Source: Planctomycetota bacterium
Lineage (GTDB): Bacteria; Planctomycetota; UBA1135; UBA2386
Reading direction: 5' to 3'
DNA: 64,000 nt
Assembly (NCBI GenBank): GCA_025459175.1
Contig: JALORC010000015.1
Coordinates: 124,001 to 188,000, forward strand
The notes beneath the pieces are model-generated. The model was not told the origin of the DNA. It did no database searches and worked only from the letters and a program-made list of their open reading frames with translations. This document shows, piece after piece, positions 4,998-54,855 of this stretch (position 1 is its first letter; each line of letters opens with the position of its first letter). A program made the translations under genes and the position numbers.

Positions 4998-7900
4998 ATG
5001 GACTCGACCGACGACCTGCTCGCCGAACTGCTGGACCTACCGCCGGAACAATGGCGCGCCGGACTCGAGCGGGTTTGCACCGAACATCCGGCTTGCGCCA
5101 CCGAGCTGCGGCGCCGTTTCGCGCACCTGGAGCGCTGTGGCGTCACCGAACCGGTGGCGCTGAGCGCGCCGGTTCCGGGCCAGGTACCGCAGCGCTTCGG
5201 GTCCTACCGGCTGCTGCGTCGCCTTGGCGAAGGCGGCATGGGCACCGTGTGGCTGGCGCTGCACGAGGGCCTCGGCCGCGAAGTCGCGATCAAGATGTTG
5301 CGCCCCGAGCGCCTGTGGTTCGACAACGCGCGGGAGCGGTTCCAACGCGAGGTCGAGGCCGTGGCCCGACTGCGCCATCCCGGCTGCGTCGCCATCCAGG
5401 AAGTCGGCGAGACCGAGAACGTGCCGTTCTTCGCGATGGAATACGTCGCCGGCGCGAACTGCGAACAGATCCTGACCGCGCTGCGCGCACGGCGCCCGGC
5501 CGTGTCCCCGGCCAGCTCTTCCGGCCACGACCTGCTGACGGTGCTGCGGCAGGGCGGCACGCAGGTCGACAGCAGCGCGTCGGCCCTGTTCGCCGGCCCG
5601 TGGACCCGCACCGCCGTGCGCATCGTGCTGGCTGCCACCGAGGCGCTGGCGCACGCGCATGCCCGCGGCGTGGTGCACCGCGACCTGAAGCCCGGCAACC
5701 TGATGGTCACGCCGGAAGGCCGCGTCGTCGTCATCGACTTCGGCCTCGCGGTCGCGGCCGGCACGTCGGCGTTGACCCGCGAAGGCAGCCAGCTCGGTTC
5801 GGTGCCCTACATGGCACCCGAGCAGTTGCGCGGCTTTGCCGCGGCGATCGGCCCGCGCACCGATGTCTATGCGCTCGGGGTCTGCCTGTACGAGCTGCTC
5901 GCCATGGCCCCGGCGTTCGCAACCGGCGACGAACAGCAGCTGCGCACCGCGATCCTGGCCGGCGGCGTGCCGCCGTTGACCGAACGCAATCCGGCGGTGA
6001 GTCGCGATCTCGCCGTCGTCGTGGCACGGGCCATGCACGTCGATCCCGAACGGCGCTACGCCTCGGCGCTGGAGTTGGCGGCCGACCTGATGGCGGTGCT
6101 CGAGGATCGCTCGATCCAGGCGCGGCGGGATGCGCTGGGGGCGCGCCTGTCGCGGTGGGCGCGGCAGCGGCCGGCCCTGGCGACCGCCGCCGCGCTGCTG
6201 CTGCTCGGCACCCTGCTGGTGCCGACCGCGATCTCGCTGGCGATCGCCGGCCAGCGCGATCGGGCCCAGGTGGCCGAGCAGCAGGCGCGCCGCCGCGAGT
6301 ACGGCGCCAGCGTGTCGGCCGCCGCCACCGCCCTGCTCGCCGGCAACGGCAACGCGGCGCGGCTGCTGCTGGATGGCTGCGCGCCTGACCTGCGCGGCTT
6401 CGAGTGGCACCATCTGCAGCTGGCGGTCGACACCAGCTTCCTGGTGATGCCGACCGGCACCGCCGCGGTCACCGCCGTGGCCGTGACGCCGGCCGGCGAT
6501 CGCCTGATCGCGGGCACCGCGGACGGCCGCCTGCGGCTGTACGCGCTTGCTGCCGGGGAACTGCTCCGGGAGTTCAAGGCCGTCGGCAAGTCGGCACTGG
6601 CGACCATCGCGTTCGACGGCGATGGCGCGGAGCTGTTCGCGGTCGATGCCGAACAGGTCTTGCGCGTCTACGACGTGAGCACCGGCCAGCTGCTGCGGCA
6701 GCGGCCGGGGGCCGCGGCGAAGGAGCGCCTCGCCTTGCCGGACCAGGTCGACCGCGTGGTGGTCGCGCGCCCCGGCGGACGCCTCACGATCCTCGACGCG
6801 CGGTCGCTGGCGGTCCTTCGCGATGTCGATCTGGAACTGCGTGGCTGGCCCGACGACAACCCGTGCGTGGTGTCCGGCGAGGACGTGCTGGCCGGTGGCA
6901 CACGCGGCATCACGATCTGGGACTCACGCGATGGCAGTTGCCGCGCGCAGCTGCCGCACGCCGCTGGCACCAGCTTGCTCGGCGTCAGCGAAGGCGCGGC
7001 GATGGTCGCGAGTCTGCACGGCCCCGACCTGATGGCGTGGCACCTCGGCGAGCAGCGCGGGTCCTCGTTCAGCCTCGGTGGTCGCACGCCGATCAAGGTG
7101 CTGCTGCCCCGCGCCGGCCGCTTCGTCGTGGCTCCCTGCGACACCGGCGAGATCCTGGTGCGGGATCCGGGGACGCAACACGTGCGGACGCTGTGCGGCC
7201 ACCGGGGCGCCGTCACGTCCGCCGCGGTCGTGCCCCGCACCAACACCTTCGTGACCGGCGGTGCGGACGGCACGGTGCGGCTTTGGAGTGCTTCGGCCTC
7301 GCGCGATCGGGTCGAGCTGACCGGCGTCGGCTGGGGCCGTTCGCTGGCGATCGATGCGCAGCGGCGGCTGTTCACCGGCGGCGATGATGCGACCGTGCGG
7401 GCCGTCGATCCCGACACCGGGGCGGTGGCCTGGCAGGCCCTGCACCCACACTGGGTGAACGCGGTGGCCGTGGTCGAAGCCGAGCAGCTGTTGGTCGCTT
7501 CGGTGGGGACGCGGCTTTGGTTCTGGTCGACTGCCGATGGCACCTCGCGCGGCCACCTGGACCTGCCCGCCGACAGTTCGCGTGCGATGCGCATCGCGGT
7601 GGCGCCCGGCGGCAACCTGCTCGCCGTCGGTGGCCAGACCGGGCATGTGACGCTGGTCGACCCGGTGGCGCGCACCGTGTTGCAGAGCCGGGCCGTGCAC
7701 GTGGGGATGTTGACGGAGATCGTGTTCGACGGGCCGCGGCGGCTGCTGTCGGGTGGCACCGATGGCGCCGTGTTGGCGATGGATGCCGCCGGCGAGGCAC
7801 CGCCGCAGCTGCTGTGCCGCACCAGCGCCGCGTGCCGGTCCATCGCGATGGCCGGGGCAGTGCTCTTCACCAGCGAGCAGGCGCTCGCGGCGCCCAGCGG

Positions 7901-44462: not shown

Positions 44463-44874
44463 GAAGCGCTGCGGTCGGCGCGAGTTCCTGCGCGCCACCA
44501 AGCTGGCGCGATCGATCCATCTCGCCCTGCACAGCGTCGGCGTCGACGAGGACTGGCGCGCGCTGGAGCTGGCCAACGTCGTGCTGCAGGCCTTGCGGCA
44601 GAAGCGCGCCGCTGGTGATGGCGACGGCAGCGAGGTCGTGTTGACGACCACCGAGATCGCCGACGCGGTGCAGCACCTGCTGGTCGTGACCGGCCAGGCG
44701 CCGGCGGCCGTCGCGTACGGCGCCGTCGCGGCCGAACGCGGCCGCCGCCGCCAGAGTGTCGCGGTGCTCGGCCGGTTCGGCGGCCCGGCCCCGGTGGTGG
44801 CGCCGCTGCTGGCCAGCCTGCCCGAAACCGTGGCGGAGCCCGGGCTGCGGCCGCAACGCCGCTTCGGGGAGTGA
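44434..44874 (+). CDS. Stand-alone ATP-cone domain protein
   Basis: The 146-residue product starts at the ATG at 44434, with GGAGG eight bases upstream inside the end of nrdR. Residues 8-100 form an ATP-cone: VEKRCGRREFLRATKLARSIHLAL, a central helix, and TTTEIADAVQHLLVVTGQAPAAVAYGAV. The rest is a short Pro/Ala-rich tail. There is no zinc ribbon, so it is not a second NrdR. ATP-cones bind ATP or dATP and control oligomer state. Its position between nrdR and smc suggests a nucleotide-sensing partner of NrdR. I do not know a named family for it. Confidence 0.75.
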   Translation: MKRRTEHLVEKRCGRREFLRATKLARSIHLALHSVGVDEDWRALELANVVLQALRQKRAAGDGDGSEVVLTTTEIADAVQHLLVVTGQAPAAVAYGAVAAERGRRRQSVAVLGRFGGPAPVVAPLLASLPETVAEPGLRPQRRFGE

Positions 44875-44878
44875 GCGC

Positions 44879-47800
44879 ATGCGCCTCAAGCGACTGGTCG
44901 CCCGCGGCTTCAAATCGTTCGCCGATCGCACCGAGTTCGAGTTCGACTCGCGGCTGACCGGCATCATCGGGCCCAACGGCTGCGGCAAGTCGAACGTCGT
45001 CGACGCCATCAAGTGGGTGCTCGGCGACCAGCGCGCGAAGAGTCTGCGTGGCACCGAGATGACCGATGTCATCTTCAAGGGCGCCGAGGGTCGCGAGGCG
45101 ATGGGCATGGCGGAGGTGACGATCACCTTCGAGGACCCCGAAGGCCGCCTCGAGGGCCGCACCGAGATCGACATCTCGCGCCGGCTGACGCTCGATCGTG
45201 AGTCGACGTATCTGCTGAACGGGCAGGACGTGCGGCTCAAGGACGTGCGCGACGTGCTGCTCGACACCGGCCTCGGCACGGGTGGTTACTCGGTGATGGA
45301 GCAGGGCCGCATCGATGCGGTGCTGTCGGCCAACCCCGAGGCGCGGCGCGCGATCTTCGAGGAGGCCGCCGGCGTCGCGCGCTTCAAGATCCAGAAGAAG
45401 GAAGCGCTGCGCAAGCTCGAGCGCACCGACCAGAACCTCGCTCGCGTCACCGATCTGCTCGAGGAGCGTTCGCGCCGGATCCGCAGCCTGCGCATCCAGG
45501 CCGGCAAGGCGCGGCGCTGGCAGGAACTGCAGCAGGCGCTGTGCTCGCTGCGCGCGGCGCTGTCGGTGATCGACGGCATCGCGCTGCGGCAGGAACTCGG
45601 CGGGCACGAGACCCGGCTCGCCGATCTGCAGGTCGAACTGGCGACCGCCGAGGACGGCCGCGACGGCACCGCCGACCAGCTCGCGACCGCCGACGACGCG
45701 ATCACGAAGGCCGCGCAGCAGCTGGCGCAGGTGCAGGACGAACTGCGCGCCTGCCAGGGCGAACTGCTGACGCATCGCGAACGCGCCGAGTCGCACAAGC
45801 GCCGCGCCCAGGACCTGCTGGCCGAGCTCGAGCGCGGCCGGCAGCGGGCCCAGGGCCTGGTCGACCAGCGCGACGAACGGTCGGTGTCGCTGACCATCGC
45901 CCGCGACGACCTGGTGGCGAAGGAGAGCGAGCTGATCGAGCTGCACAAGGCGCTCGAGGAGCAGCGGCAGTGCAGCCAGCAGGCGCTGGCCGCGCTGCGC
46001 ACGATGCAGCAACAGCGCGAGACGATCCGCGAGCGGCAGCTCGAGCTGATCCATCGCCGCACGCGCCTGCGCAACGGTGCCGGTGACGCGCAGGCCAAGC
46101 TCGGTGCGGCGCGCGCGCGCGAGCAGCGGCTGCAGGAACGCGCCGGCGTGCTGCGGGCCGAGCAGGCGCGGCTCACCGACGAACTGCAGCGTTGGCGCGG
46201 CGAACTGCAGGACTACGGCACCCGCGAGCGACTGCTCGGCGAACGCGAGCGCACCGCACTCGGCGACCTCGAGGGCGCCGACGCGCAGGCGGCGGCGATG
46301 GCCGAACAGGAATCGGTGCTGCGTCGTGAGCTGACCGAGGTCGAAGGGCGCCGCCAGGCGCTGTCGGCGATGGAGGCCCACATGGAGGGCTTCGACCAGG
46401 GGCCGCGGCACGTGCTGAAGATGCAGCCCGTGGGGCTGCGCGGCCGCCTGCTCGACCTGATCGAGATCGACCTGCAGCACGGGGCCGCGCTCGAGGCGGC
46501 GCTCGGTCCGTACGTGCAGGCGCTGGTGGTCGACACCCGCGAGAACGCGGCGGCGATCGTGCGCCAGCTCGCCGAGCAGCGGCTCGGGCGCGTGCTGTTG
46601 CTGGTCGAGGAAGCGTTCGGCGAGGCGCCGCCGTGTGCGACGTCGTCGTCGCTGCTGAAGCCGCCGACCGGCGTCAGCTACCTGACCGATTTGATCCGCC
46701 ACGTCGTGCACGGCGGCGACGATGCCAGCAGCCGCAAGCTGCTCGGCTGGCTGTTGCGCGGCGTCGTGGTCGCCGACTTCGACATCGCCGACAGCGCCCG
46801 CGCCGACCTGTGCTTCGTGACCCCGGACGGCACCCTGGTGTGCGGTCCGCGCATGGAAGGTGGGGCCTCCGCCGAGGGCCAGTCGGGTCTGGTGGTGCGC
46901 CGGTCGCAGATCGCCGAGCTCGGCACCGCGGTGGCCGCCGTGCAGCAGCGCCTGCAGTCGCAGCAGCAGGGCAAGGACCAGGCCACCGGCCGCGTCGATC
47001 GGCTCAAGCGCGAGTTGAAGGCGATCGGCGATGCGCTGGCGACCGCGCGGCGCGCGATGCAGCAGGCGCACGGTCAGGAGCTGCGGCTCGCCGCGCGCAG
47101 CCAGGACGTCGAGCGCGAGCTCGGCGAACTGGAGCACGAGGCCGCCGAGCTGTCGCACGTGCGCTGCGGTGCGCTCGGCCGGCTCGGCCAGTCGCTGTTC
47201 AACCAGTTCCTGCTGACCCGGCACGAACAGGCGATCAGCGCCGACGAGCAGGGCTTCGGCGATCGCATCCGCGCGGCCGAGCAGGACGCGCAGGCGCAGC
47301 AGCGCGCCGAACAGGAGCTGCGCATCAAGCAGGTGCAGGCCGGCGAGGTGCGCGAGGGGCTGGTGCGTTCGATCCGCATGCACGAGGAGGCGGTGCGCGA
47401 TTTCGAGCGCGCGCTGCAGGAACTCGTCGACCGGCACCAGGATGCCGAGGACGATCGCACCAAGGCGCTGTCGGAACAGGAGCGCCTCGCCGAGCTGGCG
47501 ATGGTGCTCGAGGACCGGCTGGCCGAGCTCGAGGGCCACAAGACCGAGGCGCAGGCCGCGGTCGACCGGGCCCGCAGCGCGCGCGCCCGCGTGCAGCAGG
47601 AGGTGCAGCAGTGGGAGCAGCGGCGCAGCGCCGCCAACGAGGCGCTGACGCAGACGCGGTTGCACCGCGCCGACGTCGACCATCGCTTCCAGCGGCTCGA
47701 GGACCGGTTGCGCGAGGAGACCGGCATCGAGTTGCGGCGCTGTCTCGGCGAGATCGAAGGCATCGGCATCGAGGGCCATGACGCCTACCACGGACCGGTG

Positions 47801-48655
47801 GCGCGGCTCGGCATGGTCGAACAGCTGCTCGGCCCGCCGCTGCCGCCGGCCTACATCGCGGCCTGGTACGGCCTGCAGCGGCTGTGGGAGCAACCCGACT
47901 TCGACCAGGAGCAGGCGCGCAAGGAAGTGCAGGTGTTGCACTCCCAGAAGGAGCGCCTCGGCGCGGTCAACCTCGACGCGGTCAAGGAACTCGACGCCGA
48001 AGAAGGCCAGTTCACGACGCTCGAGCAGGAGGTGCAGGACCTCAAGGACGCGCGCAAGGCGCTGATGGACACGCTGAAGAAGCTCGAGGCGGAGTCGAAG
48101 ACGCTGTTCGAGCAGACCTTCCACGAGGCGCGGAAGAACTTCCAGGAGATCTTCCGCAAGCTGTTCCAGGGCGGCAAGGCCGACATGTTCCTCTCCAACA
48201 CCGAGGAGGACCTGCTCGAGGCCGGCATCGAGATCGTCGCGCAACCGCCCGGCAAGCAGCTGCAGTCGATCAACCTGTTGTCCGGTGGCGAACGGTCGCT
48301 GACCGCGGTCGCGATCCTGTTCGCGCTGTTCAAGGTGCGGCCGAGCCCGTTCTGCATCCTCGACGAGGTCGACGCCGCGCTCGACGAGACCAACGTCGAA
48401 CGCTTCCTGCGCGTGCTGCGCGACTTCACCGCGCAGACGCAGTTCTGCATCGTCACGCACCACAAGCGCACGATGGCGGACTGTCAGGTGCTCTACGGCA
48501 TCACGATGCAGCGGCGGGGCGTGAGCTCGCGCATCGCGGTGTCGCTGCAGGAAGTCGACAGCTTCACCGAGGGTGGGGCGGCGCCGGCGGCGGGCAAGCC
48601 CGATGCCGCGCAGAAGCAACGCATCGCCGGCGAAGAGGCGGTCGGTTTCGGCTGA
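44879..48655 (+). CDS. smc: Chromosome segregation protein SMC
   Basis: The 1258-residue product starts at the ATG at 44879, 4 bp after the previous stop. Walker A is GPNGCGKSN from 31, Q-loop in IKWVLGDQRAKSLRG, then LLDTGLGTGGYSVMEQGRID, a long coiled coil and a hinge at about 510-680 (QPVGLRGRLLDLIE, GVVVADF). The second coiled coil leads to the C-terminal head: LLSGGERSLTAVAILFALF signature and Walker B FCILDEVDAALDETNVERF. The length fits bacterial SMC (about 1170-1260). It works with ScpA/ScpB to compact and segregate chromosomes; those genes are not here. Confidence 0.96.
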   Translation: MRLKRLVARGFKSFADRTEFEFDSRLTGIIGPNGCGKSNVVDAIKWVLGDQRAKSLRGTEMTDVIFKGAEGREAMGMAEVTITFEDPEGRLEGRTEIDISRRLTLDRESTYLLNGQDVRLKDVRDVLLDTGLGTGGYSVMEQGRIDAVLSANPEARRAIFEEAAGVARFKIQKKEALRKLERTDQNLARVTDLLEERSRRIRSLRIQAGKARRWQELQQALCSLRAALSVIDGIALRQELGGHETRLADLQVELATAEDGRDGTADQLATADDAITKAAQQLAQVQDELRACQGELLTHRERAESHKRRAQDLLAELERGRQRAQGLVDQRDERSVSLTIARDDLVAKESELIELHKALEEQRQCSQQALAALRTMQQQRETIRERQLELIHRRTRLRNGAGDAQAKLGAARAREQRLQERAGVLRAEQARLTDELQRWRGELQDYGTRERLLGERERTALGDLEGADAQAAAMAEQESVLRRELTEVEGRRQALSAMEAHMEGFDQGPRHVLKMQPVGLRGRLLDLIEIDLQHGAALEAALGPYVQALVVDTRENAAAIVRQLAEQRLGRVLLLVEEAFGEAPPCATSSSLLKPPTGVSYLTDLIRHVVHGGDDASSRKLLGWLLRGVVVADFDIADSARADLCFVTPDGTLVCGPRMEGGASAEGQSGLVVRRSQIAELGTAVAAVQQRLQSQQQGKDQATGRVDRLKRELKAIGDALATARRAMQQAHGQELRLAARSQDVERELGELEHEAAELSHVRCGALGRLGQSLFNQFLLTRHEQAISADEQGFGDRIRAAEQDAQAQQRAEQELRIKQVQAGEVREGLVRSIRMHEEAVRDFERALQELVDRHQDAEDDRTKALSEQERLAELAMVLEDRLAELEGHKTEAQAAVDRARSARARVQQEVQQWEQRRSAANEALTQTRLHRADVDHRFQRLEDRLREETGIELRRCLGEIEGIGIEGHDAYHGPVARLGMVEQLLGPPLPPAYIAAWYGLQRLWEQPDFDQEQARKEVQVLHSQKERLGAVNLDAVKELDAEEGQFTTLEQEVQDLKDARKALMDTLKKLEAESKTLFEQTFHEARKNFQEIFRKLFQGGKADMFLSNTEEDLLEAGIEIVAQPPGKQLQSINLLSGGERSLTAVAILFALFKVRPSPFCILDEVDAALDETNVERFLRVLRDFTAQTQFCIVTHHKRTMADCQVLYGITMQRRGVSSRIAVSLQEVDSFTEGGAAPAAGKPDAAQKQRIAGEEAVGFG

Positions 48656-49477: not shown

Positions 49478-51106
49478 CTAAGCCGTCTCGTCGCGCCGCA
49501 GCTGCCGCCAGGCGGCGACGAGTGGCTCGGCCTGCTGCGGCGACACCATGCGCACCCACGCCAACATGCCGGCGACATGGTTGGCGAAGTCCGGGTGACC
49601 GTCGCGGTTCTGTGCCTCGAGGCCGGTCTTCGCGGCCTGGTGCAGGATCGCGCGCAATCGCCGTACGGTCTCGCGCGGGATGTGCGGCTGCGCGCCATTG
49701 ACGACGATGCCGGTCACCCGCTGGCAGCTGCTCGGCCGCAGCACCCGCGTCTTCTTCTCGTTGACCGTGAACCCCTCGTCCTGCGCGATGTGCCGGATTC
49801 GCGCCAGCAGGTAGCCGATGCGCGCGAGAGCTTCGGGCTCGGTGGTCGAGAACGACAGGTCGTCGGCGTAGCGCGTGTAGGTGAAGCCGAGCTTGTTGGC
49901 GATGCCCTGGCAACGCGCATCGAGGCGGCGCGCGATCAGGTTGCTCAGCGCGGGGCTCGTCGGCGCGCCTTGCGGCAGGCAACGTGGGCCGGTGGCGACG
50001 TGCAGCGGCCGCCCCGCATACTCGACCAGCCGCCGCGGCGCTTCCGTGCACAACAGCGCGAGGATGGTCGCGGCCGCCGGCGAGTAGCCGAGTTCTTCGA
50101 AACAACCGCGCACACGATGCACGTGGATCGTCGGGAAGAAGTCCTTCAGGTCGCAGTTGACGACCGCCAGCGCCTGCAGGTGCGGCACTGCGTTGCTGAC
50201 CGTGCTGCGGCCCGGCACGAAGCCGTGCGCGGCAGCGTGCGTCGGCACCTTGGCCAGCAGGTTGGCGAGGATCCAGTCCTGCGTCGCGCGCAGGCGCGGC
50301 ATCGGCGCCGCGAGGTCGCGCGTGCCGCCGGAGCGCTTCGGCACCGTGAAGCGCACGTAGTGTGGACGCGCGGTCGCCTCGGCATGGAACGCGAGCCAAC
50401 GCAACTGCGGGATCGGCAACTGCAGGGCCGCGGCGACATCGGCCGGCGTCGCCAGCACCGGCAGGCCGGCGCCGCCGAGTCGCGCGGCGTCGGCGGTGCG
50501 ATCGGCGAGACCCTTCGATACGCCGCGGCCGAGGAACACGATGTCGCCGGCGCGGCGGGCCGCGATCGCGGCGGCACGTTCGGCGCGGCGGCGCGCGGCC
50601 GCGTCCTTCTTCTGCTGTTTGCGCTGCGCTCGCTCGGCGCGATCGTCCTGCACCGCGGCTTCGGCCGCCGCCGCGCCCCCGTCGCGGCGGGGATCGAGCC
50701 GCAGCATCTCGTCGCCGACGCGGTGCATCGCCGCCAGTTCGTCGGCGGACGCGAGGCCGCGGCCGATCATGCCGCGATCGATCAGGTTGGTGCGTTCGTC
50801 GGTCGACGGCGGCACCAGGTCGCGGCGCCCCCACCACGACGCACCACCGAAGATGGACCAGACCGACAGACCGCGCTGGCGCAGCGAACGCTTCAGCTCA
50901 CTGCCGGCGAGCGGCGTCAGGTTGGGTGCCTGCAGGCGCGGACCGATGCCGGCGGCGCGTTCTGGCGCCGCGGGCGGCGTCATCGGCCGCGCGGGGGCCG
51001 CCGAACCGGACGCGATCGGCGCCGGGCGGCCGGGCCGCGCCGTCGGGCGCGGGCGTGGTTTGCCACCGAACAGCAGCTGCAGCAGGCGCTGGATCAGCGA
51101 GATCAA
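49478..51106 (-). CDS. Retron reverse transcriptase (type XIII-like)
   Basis: The 542-residue product starts at a TTG at 51106. The RT core covers about 255-525. Retron hallmarks are present: NAxxH (SNAVPH, near 305), NCDLKDFFPTI, LPQGAPTSPALSNLI, catalytic YADD at 413-416 in YTRYADDLSFS, and VTG in QRVTGIVVNG. The core is preceded by an unusually long N-terminal extension of about 240 residues: a Pro/Arg-rich start, a conserved-looking block (ELKRSLRQRGLSVWSIFGG), and a Lys/Arg/Ala-rich helix near 155-190. It reverse-transcribes the msr-msd RNA encoded 55 bp upstream. The operon with ARM and SWIM proteins matches my recollection of type XIII retrons, which act in phage defence. Confidence 0.92.
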   Translation of the reverse strand: MISLIQRLLQLLFGGKPRPRPTARPGRPAPIASGSAAPARPMTPPAAPERAAGIGPRLQAPNLTPLAGSELKRSLRQRGLSVWSIFGGASWWGRRDLVPPSTDERTNLIDRGMIGRGLASADELAAMHRVGDEMLRLDPRRDGGAAAAEAAVQDDRAERAQRKQQKKDAAARRRAERAAAIAARRAGDIVFLGRGVSKGLADRTADAARLGGAGLPVLATPADVAAALQLPIPQLRWLAFHAEATARPHYVRFTVPKRSGGTRDLAAPMPRLRATQDWILANLLAKVPTHAAAHGFVPGRSTVSNAVPHLQALAVVNCDLKDFFPTIHVHRVRGCFEELGYSPAAATILALLCTEAPRRLVEYAGRPLHVATGPRCLPQGAPTSPALSNLIARRLDARCQGIANKLGFTYTRYADDLSFSTTEPEALARIGYLLARIRHIAQDEGFTVNEKKTRVLRPSSCQRVTGIVVNGAQPHIPRETVRRLRAILHQAAKTGLEAQNRDGHPDFANHVAGMLAWVRMVSPQQAEPLVAAWRQLRRDETA

Positions 51107-51160
51107 GGGTGGGCGCGCAGTGGCGAGTAGGGAAAAGCGAGAGGAAGGCGACCCGAGAAG

Positions 51161-51367
51161 GCACAGCGCCTGACTTCAGACCATGGACCAAGGTCGTTCA
51201 CCCAAGCCGCTGTCGCACCTGTGTGCGGCAAAGGCCTCGGTCCTGCGCTCGGTAGCCGCACACAGGTGCGACAGCGGCAAACCGAACAACGACCTTGGGG
51301 ACGCGTGGGGAGTCAAACGGCATCCGCGGCGGAACGCCGCAGAGGAGTCTCAGACATGGTGCTGTGC
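51161..51367 (-). ncRNA. Retron msr-msd RNA
   Basis: A 207-nt element lies between the SWIM gene stop (51407) and the reverse transcriptase start (51106). Its ends pair: GCACAGC (a1, 51361-51367) with GCTGTGC (a2, 51161-51167). The msr part has a GCGGCG-TTC-CGCCGC hairpin at 51326-51340. The msd part has an outer 11-bp stem (51288-51298 with 51188-51198), then an inner perfect 24-bp stem (51255-51278 with 51206-51229) closing a 25-nt loop. This is the usual order a1-msr-msd-a2. The branching G is expected just after a1 but is not assigned. Position, a1/a2 and the long msd hairpin all fit a retron. Confidence 0.9.
51206..51278. repeat. Perfect 24-bp inverted repeat (msd stem)
   Basis: Arms 51206-51229 and 51255-51278 are exact reverse complements with a 25-nt spacer. 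The central part reads GCACCTGTGTGC. It forms the msd hairpin and would be the double-stranded part of the single-copy DNA (msDNA). Confidence 0.95.
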
Positions 51368-51406
51368 GGACGTACGGGCCTCCTTCCTCTCGTGGAATGT
51401 CATGGT

Positions 51407-53104
51407 TCAGCTCGGCAACCAGCGGGCGACCAGCTGCTGCCAGGGATCGGTGACGGCGCTCGCCGGCGACGTCGCGGTGGCGACCATACGCAGCGCGAGC
51501 AGATGGCGGCAAGGACCATTGCGCAGTCCCGCCCGGCGATGGTGCGAGCAGCCGCACTTGCCGCGCAGCAGCCGCTGGTCGGCGTCGAACAGCACTTCGC
51601 AAGCCTGCTTGCCGACGGTGCCGCTGGCGAACGTGCGATCGGTCGCCAGCACCTCGCGACGATCGACGCGCGCTTCGCCGCGTTCGACGGCGCCACAGGC
51701 CGCGAGCAGCTCGGGACTCGGACCGCCGACATCGGCCTCGCCGAGCGGCTGCGGCAGGATCGAGCGGAACCGGTAGACGCCGGCGGCGAGGTCGAACAGC
51801 ACCTGGCCGGTGCGCGCCAGGTGATCGAGCGCGGTCAACAACTCGGCCGCCGGCAAGCGCGACAACTCGAGCAGCTGGCGGCGGGTCAGGCTGCGGCGCT
51901 GCTGCAGCAGGCCGGCGGTGATCGCGATCGCATCGCGCCCGGCCACCGTCGGCGGCCGCAGCGTGTCGAGCGACGATCCGCGCGTCCAGTCGTTGCTGGT
52001 CCAGCCGGACAGGCCGAGCGTCAGCGTCATCTCGCCCATGCCGACGACCCAGAACGACGGCAGGCCGGTGCCGACCAGGTGCACGGTGATCGAATCGGCG
52101 AGCGGCAGCACGCGCGCCAACACCATCAGCCGGCGGCGGCCCCAGATGCGGATCGGCTCGAGGCTCGGGCCGTCGTGGCGACAGCCATGTGCGACCAGGC
52201 GTTCACCGAACGGTTCCAGCACCACCGCCGGCGGCTGGCCCTCGACCAGTTCGAAGCGCAGCGCGCGCGGCGAACTGCGTTCGCGGTGCCGGCGCAGGAA
52301 CGCGAGCAGCGAGTAGACCAGTTCGCGCGGCAGCCGGATCGTCGTCGCCGGCAGGCCGGCGGCGACCTGCACCTGCATCAGGCCGCGCAGCCAGCCGGCG
52401 GGCAGGTCGATCTTCTCCTCGCGGTAGTCGGCGTTGCCGGCGGTGCGCACCGTGAATCCGGCCGGATCGACCAGGAAACGCGTCTGCCGGTAGGTGCGCA
52501 GCTGCTGGAACTGTTCGTACAGCGCCGGCGAGTAGTCGACGTTGGTGGTGCCGAGCTGCACGCCGGCCGCCGGCGCGAAGCCGTCGTCGCGGCGCACCGA
52601 CAGACAGCCGTAGGCCGACTCGTCGACCGAGAAGCCCTCGAACAGGCAGGCGTCGTCGGCGACCGTGACGATCGGATCGCACGGCGTCAACATGCGCCAC
52701 AGCTCGGGGTCCTCGCGCATCAGCAACCGCGAATACTGGTCGCGTAGCTGCCAGTAGCGTTTGGTCGCCTTGCCGAACTCGCGGCGCAGCTCCGGTGTGA
52801 TGCCGACCGCGGCATCGCCCTGCTGCTGCGCCGCGGTGCGCGCGTCGCGGCGGATCTGCTGTTCGCGCGATTGCTGGCCGGCCCGCCACTGCCGCCACGC
52901 GGTGCGATCCGGTTTGGCCACGCGCAGGTCGCAGACCACGACGTCGTGCAGCGCCGAGATCGCTTCGCGGAAGCGCAGCGGCTGGCGCAACGCTGCATCG
53001 AAGGCAACCGGCTCACGACACAGGTTCGGCGCGAACGACAGCTGGGCGGCGTCGCCGTGCACCGCGAGGCCGGAGCGACCGAGGTAACCGAGCGAGAGGT
53101 TCAC
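51407..53104 (-). CDS. Retron-associated SWIM zinc-finger protein (WHSWIM type)
   Basis: The 565-residue product starts at the GTG at 53104, overlapping the ARM gene stop (GTGA). The C-terminus has a SWIM finger: CGC then, after about ten residues, GPCRHLLALRM (CxC...CxH, near 525-550). Before it are helix-rich segments with winged-helix-like pattern (RRQLLELSRLPAAELLTALDHLARTGQVLFD) and a beta-rich middle. SWIM domains bind nucleic acid or protein. In retron operons such a protein, together with an ARM-repeat protein, is thought to be the effector or its guard. It lies immediately upstream of msr-msd. Confidence 0.85.
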   Translation of the reverse strand: MNLSLGYLGRSGLAVHGDAAQLSFAPNLCREPVAFDAALRQPLRFREAISALHDVVVCDLRVAKPDRTAWRQWRAGQQSREQQIRRDARTAAQQQGDAAVGITPELRREFGKATKRYWQLRDQYSRLLMREDPELWRMLTPCDPIVTVADDACLFEGFSVDESAYGCLSVRRDDGFAPAAGVQLGTTNVDYSPALYEQFQQLRTYRQTRFLVDPAGFTVRTAGNADYREEKIDLPAGWLRGLMQVQVAAGLPATTIRLPRELVYSLLAFLRRHRERSSPRALRFELVEGQPPAVVLEPFGERLVAHGCRHDGPSLEPIRIWGRRRLMVLARVLPLADSITVHLVGTGLPSFWVVGMGEMTLTLGLSGWTSNDWTRGSSLDTLRPPTVAGRDAIAITAGLLQQRRSLTRRQLLELSRLPAAELLTALDHLARTGQVLFDLAAGVYRFRSILPQPLGEADVGGPSPELLAACGAVERGEARVDRREVLATDRTFASGTVGKQACEVLFDADQRLLRGKCGCSHHRRAGLRNGPCRHLLALRMVATATSPASAVTDPWQQLVARWLPS

Positions 53105-54855
53105 GACGTGGCTCCCGCGGACACGAACCGCAGTTCGGGGAACGCTGCCTGCACGGCCGGCTGCAGCGACGGCAGGCGATCGACTGCCTGCACCAGCGCC
53201 GCGAGGCCGATGCGCGCCTCCGCCGCACGCACCGAACGCACCGCGACCGCGAACACCGGCAGCAGCGCCGCGGCATCGGCCGGCTCGGCGGCGACGGCGC
53301 GCGCCAGCTGGTGCAGCGCCTGCACCTTGGCCCGACCACCGCGATGCACGTTCAGCAGCACGGCGGTCCACAGCGGCTGCAGGTCGCGGAGGTGCAGCGG
53401 TGGCGTGCCGGCGCGAGCATCGAGCGCGTGCACCAGCCGGGTGCGCACGTCGTCGAACGGCGATTCGAGCAGGCGCGACCACAGCCCGGCATCGGCGTGC
53501 GCGGTCGCATGGCCGGCGAGCCACGCGAACGCCGCCGCGCGCACCGCCGGCAGCGCCGCATCGAAGAACGGCATCACGCGGGCCAGCGTGTAGTGCGCGG
53601 CATCGCCGAGCACACCGAGCGCCCACGCGGTTGACGTCGCGGCGACGCTGGCACAACGCACGTCGGCGAGGCGGGGCAATGCGTCGGCATCGAGCACCTT
53701 CGCCGCGTGGGCCCGCACCAGCTCGACGCCGAGCTCCGCGACCGGCGTCGCTTCGCGGCAGGCCAGCAGCAGGCATTCCGCCAGCGACAACGTCTGCAGC
53801 GCCGCCGGGTGCAACCGCGCCGCCGCCACGATCGACGGCAACGCCAGCGCACTGCGGATCGACAGCAATCGCAACCAACCGGCGCCGTCGATGCTGCCGC
53901 TGTCGCTCGATTGCGCCAGGGTCGCCGCCGCGAACGCCTGCACCTCGTCGTCGTCGTGCTCGAACAGCGGCAGCAGGCGATCGACGCTCAGCAGCCGCAA
54001 CCGTTCGGCGTGCTGTTCGCGCAGCAACGCGATGGCCCACGTGCGCACGAGCCGCGCCCGGGCACGAGCCAGCAGGTCGAGCAATGCCCTGCACGCGGCA
54101 TCGCTGCGCCACGCGGTCGGGTGCAACGGCGCCGGGGTCAGGTCCGCCAGCGATCGGCCCTCGGCGAGAGCGGCGTGCGCGACGCCGAACTCGAGCGCCG
54201 CGTGGCCGTGGTAGGCGAGCTGCAGCAGACACCACGAGTCGAGGATCGCCAGACCCGAGTCGAGGTCGTCGTCGCGATAGCGCACCAGCGCCGTAACAGC
54301 CGCCAACACGTACGCATCGGCATCGCGGAAGCCCAGGTGCCGCAGCACGCGCAGCGCGCGGCGGCGGAGGTAGAGCCGCGTGCGCAGCGAGAACTGCCGG
54401 CCATCGCCGGGCCGCTTGCCGGCGAGCGCCGGCTTGCCGCCTGCGGTCGGCACCGCACCGCGCAGGCCACCGGTGGCGTGACCGATCTGCTCGACGCGTT
54501 CCGCGGTGCGCGTCGCCGCATCCCAGGTGTGTCGAGTCCGCAGCTTGCGCCGCACCATGCAGTCGAAGCGATGCAGGAAGGCGCCGACCATCGCGAAGTC
54601 GAGGCGGCGTTCGGCGGCCTTGTAAAGTCGCTTCACGACGACGTTGTGGCCCGGTGTGGCCCACGGTGACTCCAGGTAGCGCCACTGCATCGCCATCGCC
54701 CACGGTCGCGGATCGACCTTCCAGCGCTCCACCAGCCCTTGCAGCTTCGAGGCATCGTCGACCAGCAGCAACTCGTCGACGAAGCGGTCGTCGGCGCTCG
54801 CGAAGAACTCGTCGAGCAACACGTGCGAGCCGCGGCGCTTCTGGTTCGATGGCAT
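53101..54855 (-). CDS. Retron-associated ARM/HEAT-repeat protein
   Basis: The 584-residue product starts at the ATG at 54855. It is almost entirely helical. After an N-terminal region (WKVDPRPWAMAMQWRYLESP, then a basic RTRLYLRRRALRVLRHLG helix) come repeated two-helix units of 35-40 residues (LLDLLARARARLVRTWAIALLR, LLPLFEHDDDEVQAFAAATLAQ, VMPFFDAALPAVRAAAFAWLAGHA, LLESPFDDVRTRLVHALDA). That is an ARM/HEAT solenoid. It is the first gene of the retron operon. A poor sigma70-like promoter (TTGCCA, 17 bp, TAGCCT) is visible 25-55 bp upstream. The exact role in retron defence is not established here. Confidence 0.8.
   Translation of the reverse strand: MPSNQKRRGSHVLLDEFFASADDRFVDELLLVDDASKLQGLVERWKVDPRPWAMAMQWRYLESPWATPGHNVVVKRLYKAAERRLDFAMVGAFLHRFDCMVRRKLRTRHTWDAATRTAERVEQIGHATGGLRGAVPTAGGKPALAGKRPGDGRQFSLRTRLYLRRRALRVLRHLGFRDADAYVLAAVTALVRYRDDDLDSGLAILDSWCLLQLAYHGHAALEFGVAHAALAEGRSLADLTPAPLHPTAWRSDAACRALLDLLARARARLVRTWAIALLREQHAERLRLLSVDRLLPLFEHDDDEVQAFAAATLAQSSDSGSIDGAGWLRLLSIRSALALPSIVAAARLHPAALQTLSLAECLLLACREATPVAELGVELVRAHAAKVLDADALPRLADVRCASVAATSTAWALGVLGDAAHYTLARVMPFFDAALPAVRAAAFAWLAGHATAHADAGLWSRLLESPFDDVRTRLVHALDARAGTPPLHLRDLQPLWTAVLLNVHRGGRAKVQALHQLARAVAAEPADAAALLPVFAVAVRSVRAAEARIGLAALVQAVDRLPSLQPAVQAAFPELRFVSAGATS

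Follow-up and report, generated by a model that had tools for sequence, protein, structure and literature searches.

The perfect hairpin on the minus strand of the window (i.e. the whole 64-kb stretch of DNA analysed here) is supported as part of the msr-msd of a complete type XIII retron. This assignment, whose msr-msd part was already proposed in a preliminary description of the DNA, relies on the colinear and jointly conserved HEAT, SWIM, ncRNA and RT components, on the a1/a2 duplex followed by an A-G with an invariant priming G, on an msr hairpin and on a two-tier msd. As a whole, the best explanation that we can offer, with a probability of about 0.8, is a type XIII msr-msd giving rise to a branched msDNA, whose DNA hairpin would act as a latch and whose exchangeable stem would be read as a duplex. 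The type XIII system itself is already known, and whatever is new would sit in the findings on the msd, not in the protein content. The features are as follows.

53101..54855, minus strand: HEAT-ARM protein, 584 aa, alpha-solenoid (PADLOC HEAT-ARM_XIII, 548 bits)
51407..53098, minus strand: SWIM protein, ~563 aa, start codon approximate (PADLOC SWIM_XIII, 549 bits)
49478..51106, minus strand: retron RT (P0001), 542 aa, TTG start, N-terminal extension (PADLOC RT_XIII, 524 bits)
51138..51392, minus strand: complete msr-msd ncRNA, 255 nt, between SWIM stop and RT start
51350..51392, minus strand: a1, 5' arm of the a1/a2 duplex
51138..51173, minus strand: a2, 3' arm of the a1/a2 duplex, pairing with a1
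51349, minus strand: predicted branching/priming guanosine, directly 3' of the last a1/a2 pair (A51350-U51173)
51323..51343, minus strand: msr hairpin (helix 2), 9 bp, UUC loop, G.U tolerated, 99.2% paired
51288..51298, minus strand: outer msd stem, 5' arm (RNA sense), 11 bp, pairing with 51188-51198
51188..51198, minus strand: outer msd stem, 3' arm (RNA sense), 11 bp (helix 3, double changes at 9/11 pairs)
51255..51278, minus strand: inner msd stem, 5' arm (RNA sense), 24 bp, perfect, pairing with 51206-51229
51206..51229, minus strand: inner msd stem, 3' arm (RNA sense), 24 bp, perfect (helix 4, 98.5% paired)
51230..51254, minus strand: apical loop, 25 nt, between the inner arms
51175..51310, plus strand: predicted msDNA (cDNA), placed from the geometry of the branch G, with a 5' end predicted at 51175

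HEAT-ARM_XIII comes first along the minus strand, followed by SWIM_XIII, the ncRNA and RT_XIII, and the PADLOC profile matches place all three proteins in type XIII, the next-best model for the RT being RT_other (355 bits versus 524). The RT carries an RVT_1 domain (4e-21), matches the solved Ec86 RT (E 6e-43) and possesses the YADD, NAVPH (NAxxH, region X) and VTG (region Y) motifs, which are hallmarks of retron RTs (PMC6868368). In the SWIM protein, the motif CxCx(n)CxH lies near the C-terminus, with C515, C517, C530 and H532 invariant. As expected of a retron, the predicted msr lies 5' of the msd, in line with the RT gene, and both are flanked by a1/a2. Type XIII retrons as present in PADLOC-DB, which reportedly follow Mestre et al. 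2020, share the same three protein families with identical protein content, the same-strand order and an ncRNA beside the RT; this comparison rests on the proteins, and the present ncRNA matched no Rfam family at the gathering threshold, its sub-threshold matches (mir-H2, microRNA families) being mere hairpin resemblance. An anti-phage role of the window retron would follow from its type, and SWIM and HEAT are putative msDNA-binding or toxic effectors by analogy. On the opposite strand, a chromosomal SMC gene (44756-48655; TIGR02168, 878 bits) adjoins the RT, in a seemingly housekeeping context. The window genome (258 contigs) also holds one second, distant retron RT (contig C235, 1084-2088; 41% identity to P0001), whose different upstream structure, with 13-bp arms ~130 nt apart, resembles that of a locus from a related genome (L025).

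The ncRNA starts ~15 nt past the SWIM stop codon and ends ~30 nt ahead of the RT start. The limits of 51161-51367 given in the preliminary description were too tight, the a1/a2 pairing running out to 51138 and 51392 through an 18-nt pair (51138-51155/51375-51392, 89% complementary). In the window the a1/a2 duplex amounts to -51.6 kcal/mol, and over 94 loci the cognate mean is -45.9 versus -26.8 kcal/mol for non-cognate partners, i.e. the duplex is specific for its cognate partner. The A-G following the duplex and the U pairing with its A were both invariant as sequence positions among the long matches (94/94 relatives each; A51350, G51349 and U51173 in the window), and distant loci carry TAGC or CAGC at the place of the priming G. 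By analogy with Ec86, the window cDNA would presumably begin opposite A51175. The RT would prime on G51349 and copy from ~51175, the 3' end of the msDNA being only approximate (about 51300-51320). The resulting branched msDNA, some 125-145 nt long, would carry an uninterrupted 24-bp DNA duplex above its 11-bp stem.

Both tiers of the msd are as first described, i.e. a perfect 24-bp stem around a 25-nt loop and an outer 11-bp stem beyond an asymmetric 9/7-nt internal loop. The inner arms (24 nt each, 25 nt apart) and the outer stem are 100% complementary, and the internal loops comprise 7 nt (51199-51205) and 9 nt (51279-51287). Within a range of 400 nt, the inner hairpin was the sole long, perfect, non-overlapping inverted repeat in a scan of the 64-kb window, and lies far beyond chance, since roughly 1.6e-6 such stems would be expected per 64 kb at the local G+C. 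Folding of the minus strand, as had been proposed, returned a strong structure for the hairpin region (z -7.7) and for the full 255-nt ncRNA (z -9.7); when the predicted msDNA was folded as DNA, both stems formed (z -7.2). According to a review (PMC6868368), mismatched or wobble pairs are the rule in the msd stems of retrons, fully complementary ones also being known; the initial view of the perfect stem as unusual fits this with that reservation.

In order to collect relatives, a covariance model (R1) was built from 13 upstream regions; the ncRNA core of the window (51169-51354) scores 173.6 bits against this model, which includes the window sequence. A covariance-model search against retron ncRNA families had been suggested beforehand; the one with Rfam families was without result at the gathering threshold, and the one with this purpose-built model retrieved ~90 relatives, chiefly from Planctomycetota and mostly inside HEAT/SWIM/RT operons. 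Matches occurred in 12/392 genomes sampled across the phylum and in 68/398 genomes of the class of genome G407, and nearly all of 95 matches had identical anatomy. R1 also recovered two loci that had not been used in its building, L007 and L011 (E 3e-34 and 3e-31), where the ncRNA lies ~2 kb upstream of the RT with SWIM in between; a hairpin immediately upstream of the L007 RT was set aside, R1 placing the ncRNA 2 kb away. Gene order varied among relatives (HEAT-SWIM-nc-RT, HEAT-nc-SWIM-RT and HEAT-nc-nc-SWIM-nc-RT), with a constant gene set in most loci.

Named RT relatives came mostly from Planctomycetota assemblies. The ncRNA family is also carried by a locus of Sandaracinaceae (L009, Myxococcota). 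The myxococcal retrons Mx162 and Sa163 resemble the present system, as far as their description goes, in an N-terminally extended RT, a long processed transcript and an AG-containing priming motif (PMC6868368). Some ncRNAs were orphans, i.e. with no RT, SWIM or HEAT within ~6-7 kb: eight loci hold a single one (L101, L102, L104, L106, L115, L147, L149 and L156), and L099 holds three in tandem (7203-7874; none of these genes within ~7 kb). The tandem copies share an identical stretch of 60 nt before the stem, but their stems differ, each with at most one unpaired position in the outer 24 pairs. L099, L100, L101 and L102 belong to one genome, whose seven ncRNAs all have different stems. Among orphans, the a1/a2 pairing is mostly, not always, good.

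The compensatory changes that had been proposed as a check, and whose absence was to refute the reading, were clearly present in both the inner and the outer stems. Over 93 distinct relatives, 96.6% of cells were paired, against 31-44% in slid-alignment controls, and double-sided changes amounted to 1068 cells (323 in shuffles); in the inner stem, all 17 modelled pairs covary. Since this alignment was fitted to the structure, more weight is given to counts in which stem arms were numbered from the hairpin ends, a procedure adopted because MAFFT alignment of the arms misplaced gaps. In the outer 20 pairs of the inner stem, 86 distinct stems gave 1687 Watson-Crick pairs, 26 A.C, 2 G.U and 5 other. 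The outer msd stem deviated likewise (24 A.C : 3 G.U), whereas the msr helix deviated in the opposite direction (20 G.U : 1 A.C, from only 12 distinct helices). The contrast with the msr reached Fisher p ~3e-9 for the outer stem and ~2e-10 for the inner stem, the relatives not being independent; with kinship partly controlled, A.C exceeded G.U in the inner stem in 8/8 lineages where the counts differ.

As the cDNA complements the RNA, an A.C in RNA is a T.G in DNA and a G.U in RNA is a C.A in DNA. Symmetric mutation should yield A.C and G.U equally, and a strand-wide bias would shift msr and msd alike. From their opposite biases, conservation seems to act on the msr at the RNA level and on both msd tiers at the DNA level, and selection in the cDNA sense on both tiers would mark the msd as the portion that becomes DNA. 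The clean-hairpin DNA copy predicted at the outset is independently backed by this bias. Mirrored G.U and A.C counts may also offer a means, requiring nothing but sequences, of recognising the reverse-transcribed portion of a retron RNA. Near-perfect stem pairing is found family-wide, and the hairpin spans 67-76 nt in nearly all relatives (mode 71).

The stem does not keep its sequence. Three congeneric species (genomes G487, G622 and G470; loci L103, L105 and L107) share the same operon order with three ncRNAs. Between G487 and G622, 10-19% of 4-fold sites differ in the genes and 2-3 of ~112 bases in the flanks, while both sides have changed at 15/24 stem pairs in copy 1 and at 20/24 in copy 3, copy 2 being identical. 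Under site-by-site change at 0.19, the probabilities of these counts would be ~3e-6 (15/24) and ~2e-11 (20/24). Overall, congener flanks differ at 1-4 of ~112 bases while up to 20/24 pairs are exchanged on both sides. Tandem copies in a single genome (L111) have identical loops, flanks differing at 5/113 positions and stems differing at 13/24. These data support a wholesale replacement of the stem sequence, as a cassette, in some lineages, a case which rests mainly on the three congeneric species and the tandem copies. Hypervariability in the lineage of the window was considered and rejected: the window and L003 differ at 4-5/24 pairs for a 4-fold divergence of 0.26-0.39, which is the neutral expectation. 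In other lineages too, stem divergence is not above neutral, so replacement would be episodic or lineage-specific. Stems of constant shape and changing sequence provide natural matched variants (similar RT, near-same flanks, different stems) for direct testing. In the open literature searched, outside which the founding classification paper lies, we met with no description of selection in the DNA sense, of stem replacement or of orphan arrays, which is not proof that none exists.

Several rival explanations were weighed. That the hairpin is a terminator, a transposon end or a riboregulator outside any retron accords with its intergenic position and strong folding, but such an element would hardly account for the conserved branch site, a1/a2, the msr hairpin and the linkage to RT, SWIM and HEAT, and a cDNA-sense wobble bias is unexpected of an RNA-only element; we regard this possibility as extremely slight. 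The perfect arms could instead be mutational in origin, quasi-palindrome correction during replication copying one arm onto the other. A near-identical copy in L117 (flank 3/115) with one pair changed on both sides is what such correction would leave. It should nevertheless show no preference between A.C and G.U, yet the inner stem counts 26:2, and the outer stem, with its long gap between arms, has the same bias; moreover, it leaves unexplained both the replacement of 15-20/24 pairs at a 4-fold divergence of 0.10-0.19 and the conserved hairpin length, and we consider it improbable as the main cause. That the stem diversity stems only from ordinary homologous recombination among retron copies, through conserved flanks and with no role for the stem sequence, we consider less likely than not. 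This view agrees with nearly identical flanks around differing stems, with the multi-copy genomes and with the stems common to different species (copy 2 in L103/L105, copy 1 in L105/L107); still, 86/90 stems are unique in our sample, so that donors are rarely seen, and recombination explains the route of exchange, not the source of the diversity.

A further view is that each stem, through its particular sequence, baits a phage methyltransferase, nuclease or other DNA-binding protein, replacement and multiple copies amounting to a changing repertoire of sensors. Uninterrupted palindromes are the usual type II restriction/methylation sites; they were not enriched in the arms, 4-mer palindromes being depleted in the variable part (78 vs 99.8 expected), and a bait made of such sites was rejected on this ground. 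Interrupted dyads, for their part, were modestly enriched (4.27 vs 3.95, 0/100 shuffles). Counted along the arm 51255-51278 and its counterparts in relatives, stem position 9 avoids T (1/86, p 7e-7) and position 19 avoids A (1/86, p 2e-6), two dyad-symmetric constraints; the A.C deviations pile up at positions 9 and 19-20, a spacing of roughly one helical turn, which would suit a protein contacting a single face of the DNA duplex. The stem arms had no match in phage and plasmid collections, nor four tested arms in IMG/VR, nor any in their own genome beyond the hairpin itself; planctomycete phages are poorly sampled. The bait view is further favoured by the en bloc replacement of stems between congeners, by genomes holding several ncRNAs whose stems differ and by the precedent of Ec86, which is set free once a phage methyltransferase modifies its stem (PMC13158370). 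Taken together, we find it doubtful.

Returning to the type XIII msr-msd with a DNA-hairpin latch, Ec86, Ec83 and Eco8 offer a guide: in these retrons the msDNA stem-loop controls the effector, which is released by methylation, degradation or SSB binding (PMC13158370). The likeness, i.e. control of an effector by a DNA stem-loop, is here drawn by analogy, and these systems differ in having other effectors, no nuclease or NADase domain being recognised in the present proteins. To our knowledge, neither interchangeable nor multi-copy msd are known for them. On this model, the msDNA-RT complex would keep SWIM and HEAT inactive until a phage attacks the stem; by unwinding, cutting or modifying the DNA stem during infection, the phage would set SWIM and HEAT free and abortive infection would ensue, a scheme to which we give roughly even odds. 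As the stem keeps its length and near-perfect pairing, not its sequence, the resident effector might recognise it as an even duplex of constant length, which a clamp-like SWIM would perhaps hold. The stem sequence would thereby be free for exchange, possibly under pressure from sequence-specific phage factors.

Models of the partner proteins bear on this last step. For HEAT, the AF2 model (pLDDT 84) is a confident solenoid of mostly helical repeats, whose best Foldseek matches were karyopherin/beta-catenin-like, none at E<=0.001. The SWIM model reached a pLDDT of 66 from an alignment of 8 sequences, and the top 50 Foldseek matches of this low-confidence model in PDB were all PCNA or 9-1-1 clamps (E down to 4e-7); among viral proteins, the matches were chiefly PCNA, beta clamps and processivity factors. 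For the PDB clamp matches, the rmsd was mostly 7.5-11 A and the target TM-score mostly around 0.5-0.6; when PDB sequences were searched with a SWIM profile, no clamp came up. These matches are a lead that the SWIM fold may resemble sliding clamps (PCNA/9-1-1/beta). A protein of clamp type would depend on the evenness and set length of a duplex and be indifferent to its sequence, which matches what the stem offers; a clamp-like SWIM, if confirmed, would provide the first testable idea of how type XIII effectors act. Only tentatively do we extend this to an exchangeable msd cassette, in which the stem, a perfect or near-perfect inverted repeat of fixed length, is replaced as a unit and a single RT in some genomes serves several ncRNAs, partly orphan. 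Such a cell would possess DNA hairpins that can be renewed, sensing or decoying phage factors through the clamp-like SWIM.

Two observations concern more distant RTs. In another widespread clade of Planctomycete RTs resembling RT_XIII (~360-380 bits; L047, L051, L052, L053 and L055), perfect hairpins of 19-20 bp, with loops of 3 nt and diverged in sequence, lie upstream of the RT; this is possibly another group of perfect-stem retrons. Finally, an RT ~50% identical to that of the window is encoded at NZ_LR743510.1:344723-345763, where no feature is annotated, on a 2.8 Mb replicon of Methylobacterium bullatum listed as a plasmid.
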